DNA from: a bacterium
GTDB lineage: Bacteria; JAMCPX01
Direction of reading: 5' to 3'
Length of the DNA: 15,867 nucleotides
Assembly: GCA_021789095.1 (NCBI GenBank)
Contig: JAJYJX010000039.1
Span: 1 to 15,867 of the forward strand
The notes beneath the pieces were generated by a model. The model was not told the origin of the DNA. It made no database searches and saw nothing but the letters and a program-made list of their open reading frames with translations. This document shows, piece by piece, positions 9,153 to 11,131 of this stretch. A program made the position numbers and the translations under genes. Within the stretch, counting starts at the first letter, position 1, and every line of letters begins with the position of its first letter.

Positions 9153-9686
9153 CTATGTGGTTCCGTGAAACCAGCGCGCCAGTCCCCGTCCGGCCTTACC
9201 GATGGGACAGTAAGTAAATGGACAGTAGTGACATCCGTATATGGGCAAGGCGAAAAGAAATATCAAAAACACCCCTACCCACGCCGCGGTTAAACCCACC
9301 CCCCCTATGTTCCATGCATAGGGAATGGGTATGATCAGTAAGACCGTGAAAGACACTATGTCCAGCCACAGCCCCAAAGCCAGAGGAGTGCCAGGCCGGT
9401 TCTTGAACACAAACGGTACTACCTTGCCCATGATTGTGGAGCAGCTCTGGCCGTAATAAGGGCAGGGAGCGCAGATAAGATAGCGCAGCGGAATGGCGAA
9501 CAATAAAAACGCAGCGCTCCAGACACCCAGCATAAGGATGCTTGTCTTTGCCAGAATATAAACCGCCATCAAAACGATAAACGGCCAGGGAATAAAAGTG
9601 ATGATAGCCGATTTTTTTGGCCAGGGAGATTTTTTTGGACAAGAAATCCCATTATGCACGATAATTTCAACATCCGGATTTTTCAT
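9153..9686 (-). CDS. Four-helix membrane protein with two cysteine clusters, unknown function
   Basis: I do not recognise this 177-residue protein. From ATG 9686 it has a short polar N-terminus with one Cys, then membrane helices at about 26-46, 48-70, 100-125 and 130-151. After helix 2 comes a CAPCPYYGQSC cluster (Cys72, 75, 82), and after helix 4 comes GCHYCPFTYCPIGKAGR (Cys152, 155, 160). Both clusters would lie on the same side of the membrane. The spacing and the Cys-Pro pairs recall polyferredoxin-like membrane proteins such as the NapH type, and suggest a metal centre, an iron-sulphur cluster or redox thiols; this is inference. The frame stays open upstream to 9941, but GGAG at 9693-9696 sits six bases before ATG 9686 and fixes this start. 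The gene converges on gcvPB with no gap between stops and is divergent from the lipoprotein gene. Confidence 0.78.
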   Translation of the reverse strand: MKNPDVEIIVHNGISCPKKSPWPKKSAIITFIPWPFIVLMAVYILAKTSILMLGVWSAAFLLFAIPLRYLICAPCPYYGQSCSTIMGKVVPFVFKNRPGTPLALGLWLDIVSFTVLLIIPIPYAWNIGGVGLTAAWVGVFLIFLFALPIYGCHYCPFTYCPIGKAGRGLARWFHGTT

Positions 9687-9692
9687 ATTTTT

Positions 9693-9696
9693 CTCC
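9693..9696 (-). promoter_or_regulatory. Shine-Dalgarno choosing the start of the Cys-motif membrane protein
   Basis: GGAG on the minus strand is six bases before ATG 9686. In-frame ATGs at 9704 and 9713 have no comparable site, and the residues they would add are basic, low-complexity and unlike a membrane-protein N-terminus. Confidence 0.6.
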
Positions 9697-9873
9697 GTCT
9701 TCATTTTGTCCATCTCATTCTCATTTTTCAGGGGTAATGTCAAAGAAAATCTCCTTTTTTGCCTTGTTTTTCTGGATTCCCATTGGAATTTATCCCGTGT
9801 TTTGCGGGTTGAACTATAACCGCAAATTGCCATGTTACTTGACATAATTACAAATCTGATGCATTCTATAATC

Positions 9874-10110
9874 ATGAAAATACACCGGAGAATAGATATA
9901 CTGTATTTTGTCAGTCTATTGATATTCCTTTTTATATCCATACCCGCTGGTTTAGTCAGAGCAACTGATATATGCGATCAAGATATCGTAACCCAGAATG
10001 ACGGGTATACAGATAACGACCAGGATAACAACAGTGTGTCATGCCATTTTTCCGGCAGCATAACAGAACATAATTTTGTTTCATCGAATAAAGTAACAAA
10101 ATGCATGTGA
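9874..10110 (+). CDS. Possible small exported protein, doubtful
   Basis: A 78-residue frame starts at ATG 9874. Its first 30 residues look like a signal peptide: a basic start (KIHRR), a hydrophobic core (ILYFVSLLIFLFISIPAG) and a possible cleavage site after LVRA. The remainder is short, polar and acidic with three Cys, and matches nothing I know. The stop is 26 bases before the lipoprotein start, so the two could be one operon. Against it, there is no Shine-Dalgarno before 9874, nor before in-frame starts at 9859 and 9832. The best -10-like hexamer (9867-9872) is so close that a transcript from it would begin inside the ORF. It may be a chance frame or a decayed gene. Confidence 0.3.
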   Translation: MKIHRRIDILYFVSLLIFLFISIPAGLVRATDICDQDIVTQNDGYTDNDQDNNSVSCHFSGSITEHNFVSSNKVTKCM

Positions 10111-10125
10111 AAACAATAAAAACAA

Positions 10126-10132
10126 AGGAGGT
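10126..10132 (+). promoter_or_regulatory. Shine-Dalgarno fixing the lipoprotein start
   Basis: AAGGAGG followed by five bases and ATG 10137. It rejects the longer frame that begins at 10101. The same spacing and T-rich spacer precede the malate dehydrogenase gene at 15080. Confidence 0.85.
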
Positions 10133-10136
10133 TTTT

Positions 10137-11063
10137 ATGATAAAATATATAAAAACTCAAAAGGGCTTTTGGGTAGGTTGGGGGGGGGGTATAGCAGGGC
10201 TGTTGATGATGGCAATCTCCGGCTGCGGAGGAAGCGGTGGCGGAGGCGGGGGCGGGGGCAGCGGCCCATTCAGCTCCGATCAACTTTCTGCTCTTGCCCA
10301 GATATTCGCATCGTCTGCAAATAGTGCGTCGACAATGACGGTGAGTTCTTATTCGCCGTTAAAAACAAACAATCTAAGTCCGCTTTCATCGTGCGGACCC
10401 AGCACGCTTATTCCACCGTATAGCTGTCCATCAAGCGGCAATATCTACTATACACTTACCATGGACTGCACAATGCCATCAGGATGCTGTGCCAACAAGC
10501 CGCCGTGCAGCAGCGACAGTATGTCGATAAACGGGTCGGGCAGCATTAACTATAACTCATGTGCACAGACTATTACGACAACAGGTGATCATATCATGAT
10601 AAACGGAATCATACATATGGCACTTACATCCAACGCAACGATGCAATGCGGAGGTGCTGTGGATGTCGATGTGACAGTTACCTTTACTGGTATCCCAACC
10701 ATCAGTGTAAACGGCCATGATGTGTGTCATGGAGACATCTTCATAACGGCAAAGGGACATGCTGGTGCATCAAATTATGTATCCGTATCAGGAACTGTTT
10801 GCGGACAGCGTATATATGAATACGACAATAACGGTTGTGCGGTAACGTGTGCTGATAAGTCCTGCTGCTATACAGGGACAACTTGTGATATATGTGGTTC
10901 GACAAATTATGGCTGCATACCTGCAGGCGCGGTATCTTGCTGTAACGGTAAATACTGTCCCGCACCTTACAAAACGTGTAATGCATCCGCTAACACATGT
11001 TCCCTTTCTTTTAACGGCTTGGACTTCATTCCTGCCATGCCTTCATTTGGGGTTTTTAAATAA
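10137..11063 (+). CDS. Cysteine-rich lipoprotein with poly-glycine linker, unknown function
   Basis: The 308-residue protein has a type II signal peptide: basic start (MIKYIKTQKG), hydrophobic core, and lipobox ISGC with the lipidated Cys30. A glycine-rich tether of about 12 residues follows. The middle part (about 45-220) is Ser/Thr-rich with predicted beta strands. The C-terminal 67 residues (222-288) carry 13 of the 22 Cys that follow Cys30, including three CC pairs (243/244 and 268/269 here, 117/118 earlier), and look like a small disulphide-knotted module. Surface exposure and oxidative folding in the envelope are inferred. The family is not recognised. A run of ten G (10180-10189) encodes part of the signal peptide; losing one G would create TAG four codons later. 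The Shine-Dalgarno is strong and an intrinsic terminator lies 36 bases after the stop, so it is an actively transcribed unit. Confidence 0.82.
   Translation: MIKYIKTQKGFWVGWGGGIAGLLMMAISGCGGSGGGGGGGGSGPFSSDQLSALAQIFASSANSASTMTVSSYSPLKTNNLSPLSSCGPSTLIPPYSCPSSGNIYYTLTMDCTMPSGCCANKPPCSSDSMSINGSGSINYNSCAQTITTTGDHIMINGIIHMALTSNATMQCGGAVDVDVTVTFTGIPTISVNGHDVCHGDIFITAKGHAGASNYVSVSGTVCGQRIYEYDNNGCAVTCADKSCCYTGTTCDICGSTNYGCIPAGAVSCCNGKYCPAPYKTCNASANTCSLSFNGLDFIPAMPSFGVFK
10180..10189 (+). repeat. Homopolymeric G10 tract inside the lipoprotein signal-peptide coding region
   Basis: Ten consecutive G span codons 15-18 of the lipoprotein. The present length keeps the gene in frame. Nine G would give TGG GGG GGG GTA TAG, a stop; eleven G would shift the frame to an out-of-frame stop within about 50 codons. 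Tracts of this kind mediate phase variation by slipped-strand mispairing in other bacteria. Confidence 0.9.
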
Positions 11064-11098: not shown

Positions 11099-11131
11099 AT
11101 AAGGGCGATCCTCCGGATCGCCCTTATTTTT
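11099..11131 (+). terminator. Intrinsic terminator of the lipoprotein gene
   Basis: A perfect 13-base-pair stem (ATAAGGGCGATCC pairing with GGATCGCCCTTAT) with a TCC loop at 11112-11114 is followed by a T run at 11127-11131. There is no A run on the other side, so it acts in the + direction only. It isolates the lipoprotein unit from the aconitase promoter. Confidence 0.95.

Follow-up and report, generated by a model that had tools for sequence, protein, structure and literature searches.

The window analyzed here, a stretch of 15,867 nucleotides, is contig C162 of an assembly of 203 contigs and 2.15 Mb that is 92% complete. On its plus strand, a gene for a Cys-rich putative lipoprotein follows gcvPB and precedes the genes encoding aconitase, isocitrate dehydrogenase, and malate dehydrogenase (Table 1). 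An in-frame ATG at 10101 was considered as the true start and is disfavored. ATG 10137 is preferred because an AAAGGAG-N-TTTTATGAT block, including the ribosome-binding site ahead of that codon, is conserved in front of the orthologues.

Table 1. Features at the lipoprotein locus (positions in the window).
Feature	Position	Strand	Basis
Upstream ORF, 78 aa, with signal peptide; C-terminal ~50 residues missing compared with relatives	9874..10110	+	Comparison with relatives
Shine-Dalgarno sequence AGGAGG, 5 nt before ATG 10137	10126..10131	+	Direct reading; conserved in front of orthologues
Cys-rich putative lipoprotein ORF, 308 aa	10137..11063	+	Orthologues in G001-G005, distant one in G022; dN/dS
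Predicted lipoprotein signal peptide MIKYIKTQKGFWVGWGGGIAGLLMMAISG with lipobox Cys at codon 30 (10224-10226)	10137..10226	+	Sequence; alignment with orthologous signal peptides
Four G-runs (GGG, GGG, G10, GGG), possible G-quadruplex in coding strand and mRNA	10163..10199	+	Sequence; ViennaRNA
G10 homopolymer, codons 15-18 (W G G G)	10180..10189	+	Direct reading; in silico translation with 6-14 G
Gly/Ser-rich linker after the lipobox Cys, variable in length among orthologues	10227..10265	+	Alignment
Terminator-like hairpin 3′ of the lipoprotein gene	11099..11127	+	13-pair stem, then T-rich tail

Five further genomes of the family (G001-G005) carry orthologues of the lipoprotein gene, at 58-86% identity depending on the method, and a distant orthologue occurs in another family (G022). 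Against the nearest of these (L067, from G005; about 82-86% protein identity), dN is 0.075 and dS is 0.877, giving a pairwise dN/dS of about 0.09, while the values against L069 are 0.221 and 1.432. Relative-rate counts of 6-10 versus 10-13 unique changes reveal no acceleration on the window branch. These comparisons show that the gene is real and subject to purifying selection. Relaxed selection on the gene in its own lineage was also considered and is rejected on the same counts together with the low dN/dS.

The window protein contains 23 Cys residues, and 22 of these columns are kept in all aligned orthologues. In each orthologue, too, a short n-region with charged residues leads into a hydrophobic core and a lipobox Cys, and the orthologous signal peptides end in AGC, TGC, or SC. 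The N-terminus of the window protein, MIKYIKTQK-GFWVGWGGGIAGLLMMA-ISGC, has the features of a type II signal peptide, as assigned by alignment and a regular expression, and its Cys column is shared by all orthologues. The original prediction of a Cys-rich lipoprotein agrees with these features. The lipobox predicts lipid or membrane anchoring only, so the surface exposure that was also claimed is an assumption. No Pfam or NCBIfam family matched the protein, a PDB search gave no sequence relative, and a structure model of the mature protein was too poor to use (mean pLDDT 36, pTM 0.23).

Elsewhere in the window, a membrane protein encoded on the minus strand (9153-9800) carries the Cys motifs CPYYGQSC and CPFTYCPIG and matched no Pfam or NCBIfam family. 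Among the family relatives, the lipoprotein of G005 (L067/L118) resembles that of the window (83-86%) far more than that of G002, a member of its own genus; the aldehyde dehydrogenases of G005 and G002 are equally distant from that of the window's genome (66%). The closeness of the G005 lipoprotein may possibly reflect horizontal transfer or a binning error.

A run of ten G, with a T on each side, sits inside the hydrophobic core of the signal peptide. It had been placed in codons 15-18, and direct reading confirms both the coordinates and the codon numbers. Counted from ATG 10137, the codons are TGG GGG GGG GGT (W15 G16 G17 G18), such that the run takes up the later part of codon 15, all of codons 16 and 17, and the start of codon 18. 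In silico translation with 6-14 G yields a full-length product at 7, 10, and 13 G only, and at G10 the 308-aa ORF stands in the ON frame. With 9 G an 18-aa peptide is produced, the TAG being the fourth codon after codon 15, and with 11 G a 62-aa product. Both predicted outcomes, a TAG four codons on after loss of one G and a frameshift of the remainder after gain of one, are reproduced in these translations. Out-of-frame lengths truncate the protein before the lipobox. As at a contingency locus, a change in the length of the run thus shifts the frame and abolishes the product in silico. The run is also long enough to be counted as mutable, since a poly-G/C length of at least nine is the cut-off applied in phase-variation surveys (PMC5953494).

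At the homologous place, G10 is absent from all orthologues (G001-G005 and G022), even at 82-86% protein identity. No G run is present there in G001, G003, G004, or G005, and G002 has TGGGGG. In the protein alignment, three extra residues at the run are found in the window protein only. Most simply, a short G run looks to have expanded recently, by slippage, in the window's own lineage. Phase-variable tracts are often strain- or species-specific. Retention of the tract in related lineages was tested for and not found, but it is not strictly required of such a locus, and because the orthologues belong to other genera, their lack of the run argues only weakly against selection. The exact pattern of the G10 site had no match among the viral contigs scanned. 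With regard to codon use, GGG accounts for 17.3% of Gly codons, so a WGGG peptide would be encoded with G10 about 3% of the time (0.173 squared). Genes in a 494-kb sample of the genome contain 14 [WG]GGG peptides, one of which, that of the lipoprotein, has G10. The eight other lipoprotein signal peptides identified in the sample all lack Gly-Gly-Gly in the core.

The region directly upstream also differs from that of the relatives. In G005, G001, and G003, the ORF for the small secreted peptide encodes about 130 residues and leaves about 160 nt between its end and the lipoprotein gene. In the window, the lipoprotein start lies 26 nt behind the stop of this ORF, and the distance between the two starts is 263 nt, versus 540-551 nt in the relatives. 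About 280 nt were lost in the window, or gained by these three relatives, and the upstream ORF is truncated. The TTGACA box that precedes this ORF (9839-9844) is conserved. With two derived features at one locus, regulation may have changed in this lineage.

In the genome as a whole, there are 21 runs of at least eight G, nine of at least nine G, and three of G10, with none longer. The corresponding expectations from Markov models of orders 1-5, trained on 360 kb of the genome taken without selection, are 6-37, 1.1-9.1, and 0.2-2.2. Long G runs are modestly over-represented relative to the higher-order models, though not relative to order 1, and a modest excess of the longest runs is what slippage alone would give. 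The lipoprotein G10 is the only 5′ coding run among the nine of at least nine G. Two others are in frame well inside genes (C25 and C174), three lie 4-8 nt ahead of a start codon (C80, C86, and C170), where they can serve as a Shine-Dalgarno sequence, and the rest look intergenic or unclear. The gene behind the C80 run (L035) encodes a GAF/PAS protein and that behind the C170 run (L043) an aldehyde-dehydrogenase-like protein, the C86 locus being L039; orthologues of the C170 gene carry GGGAGGG or GGAGG at the place of the run. A change in the length of these three pre-start runs would alter the spacing, and so translation.

At an assumed gene density of roughly one per kb, our own arithmetic assigns about 4% of both strands to the first 75 nt of genes. 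The odds that luck would put one of the three G10 runs there are then about 1 in 10, without correction for the fact that this site was chosen post hoc. At such odds, chance alone is neither excluded nor needed as an explanation of the position of G10. Other short microsatellites number only two in 494 kb of the genome, which does not possess a genome-wide set of contingency loci as found in Campylobacter or Neisseria. The genome retains intact MutS (844 bits, above the cut-off) and MutL (also above its cut-off), and loss of mismatch repair is therefore rejected as the cause of the long runs.

Comparable runs break unrelated genes in the sister genomes. In G003, the genes encoding leucyl aminopeptidase and PilM (L028 and L022) lose their reading frame precisely at runs of G10 and G9: the profile match to leucyl aminopeptidase is lost at the run, at about position 452 of 505, and that to PilM reaches 270 of 340, its frame likewise being broken at the run. 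In G005, the frame of yajC (L024, around 1485-1515) is broken at a G10 run in the part that encodes the Gly-rich N-terminus; this N-terminus is in frame in the family relatives that have the gene. None of these three proteins has an obvious switching role. The runs have either slipped in cells or been mis-assembled in length, and either way the step from a coding G10 to an adaptive switch is weakened and length ten needs read-level proof. Such G runs arise, and slip or are mis-assembled, in this lineage with no sign of selection for switching.

Taken with the absence of the run from the orthologues, G10 is probably a recent hypermutable run; its capacity for on/off switching would be incidental or, at the most, a new recruitment. 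It would be a young simple-sequence tract, grown by replication slippage in the hydrophobic core, and the roughly three glycines that it adds would be tolerated by the export signal. As a long mononucleotide run, it is expected to change in length more frequently than ordinary sequence. Since the run would be mutable and off-frame lengths truncate the protein before the lipobox, rare and reversible loss of the lipoprotein would be expected, arising from lengths not equal to 10 modulo 3, with the on/off potential as a by-product. The low codon-use odds for G10 in WGGG and the lack of a GGG core in the eight other signal peptides count against an incidental run, and a run kept by selection for its mutability would present the same picture.

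Such selection is the basis of a true phase-variable locus, in which slipped-strand mispairing would move the gene between ON (7, 10, or 13 G) and OFF and the run would be kept for the heterogeneity that it generates. The position of the run early in the ORF, the complete loss of product in both other frames in silico, a length above the cut-off of at least nine (PMC5953494), the Cys-rich and predicted membrane-anchored product, and the modest surplus of long G runs relative to the higher-order models are all consistent with this reading, but the run is missing from every orthologue, mismatch repair is intact, and the genome is without a set of similar loci, making a contingency locus unlikely, if still a serious candidate. 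Of the phase-variation switch originally proposed, the run, its length of at least nine, its effect on the frame, and the lipoprotein itself hold, while variation in its length and surface exposure are assumptions and selection as a switch is not supported, given the lack of a run in orthologues, the few candidate loci, the intact mutS and mutL, and the broken housekeeping genes of the relatives. The on/off interpretation of G10 is accordingly plausible but unsupported. It is also rather improbable that an uncultured, probably free-living, and mismatch-repair-proficient bacterium would use a poly-G switch within the signal peptide of a lineage-specific lipoprotein in which out-of-frame lengths turn the product off and in-frame steps of three G change the core Gly and tune export.

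The remaining explanations concern the run itself. Length ten could be an error of assembly or sequencing, or the majority length in a mixed population, with the true run having another length. This is suggested by the fragmentation of the assembly (203 contigs), by the three conserved genes out of frame exactly at G9/G10 in sister metagenome assemblies, and by the finding that G-run lengths in a reference genome differ from those in the population (PMC9187656). At ten G, though, the frame is open from the conserved start through the whole conserved protein, whereas a random error would break it in two-thirds of cases, and we regard a wrong length as improbable to a high degree; 7 or 13 G would likewise be in frame, which limits this argument for length ten. 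It has also been considered that G10 acts at the RNA or DNA level, through a quadruplex that slows translation or replication and not through a change in length. The four G-runs are separated by loops of 5-7 nt, and the ViennaRNA energy of 10100-10240 falls from -26.5 to -37.9 kcal/mol with the quadruplex term, a value computed for this stretch only. Any G10 beside G-runs would score alike, however, and the arrangement is not conserved in orthologues; such a role is very improbable.

The preferred reading of an incidental run bears on how similar sequences should be interpreted. Should the run vary in the population, poly-G phase variation would reach a lineage that is uncultured and non-pathogenic, and phenotypic heterogeneity in the environment could be tested simply, at the level of reads. 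If it does not vary, it would serve as a caution against inferring a switch solely from an early G run in a surface-type gene, because G9/G10 runs also break housekeeping genes in these genomes.

Among known systems, the run is similar to the phasome loci of Campylobacter, Helicobacter, and Neisseria in its poly-G type, its length of at least nine G, and its 5′ coding place. Those pathogens have many such genes, with variation between strains, and a meningococcal or gonococcal genome carries 15-18 poly-G tracts (PMC5953494), whereas the genome of the window has one 5′ coding run and is proficient in mismatch repair. In Neisseria meningitidis, the haemoglobin-haptoglobin receptor lipoprotein HpuA is encoded by a gene (hpuA) with poly-G in its ORF that is ON at 7, 10, and 13 G (PMC3786947). 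The window gene shares the poly-G tract in a lipoprotein ORF and, by coincidence, the same ON lengths. However, variation of hpuA is documented in isolates and the gene belongs to an iron-uptake operon, whereas the run of the window gene is known at one length from one genome and is absent from relatives, and the gene lies between a truncated small gene and aconitase. In Bifidobacterium breve UCC2003, the pilus loci bbr_0113 and bbr_1889 contain G10/G11 coding runs for which population heterogeneity was measured directly, with far more variation in culture at the G11 locus than at the G10 locus (PMC9187656). As in these pilus loci, a coding G run in the window would control a cell-envelope product by frame, which for the window is the frame read in silico.
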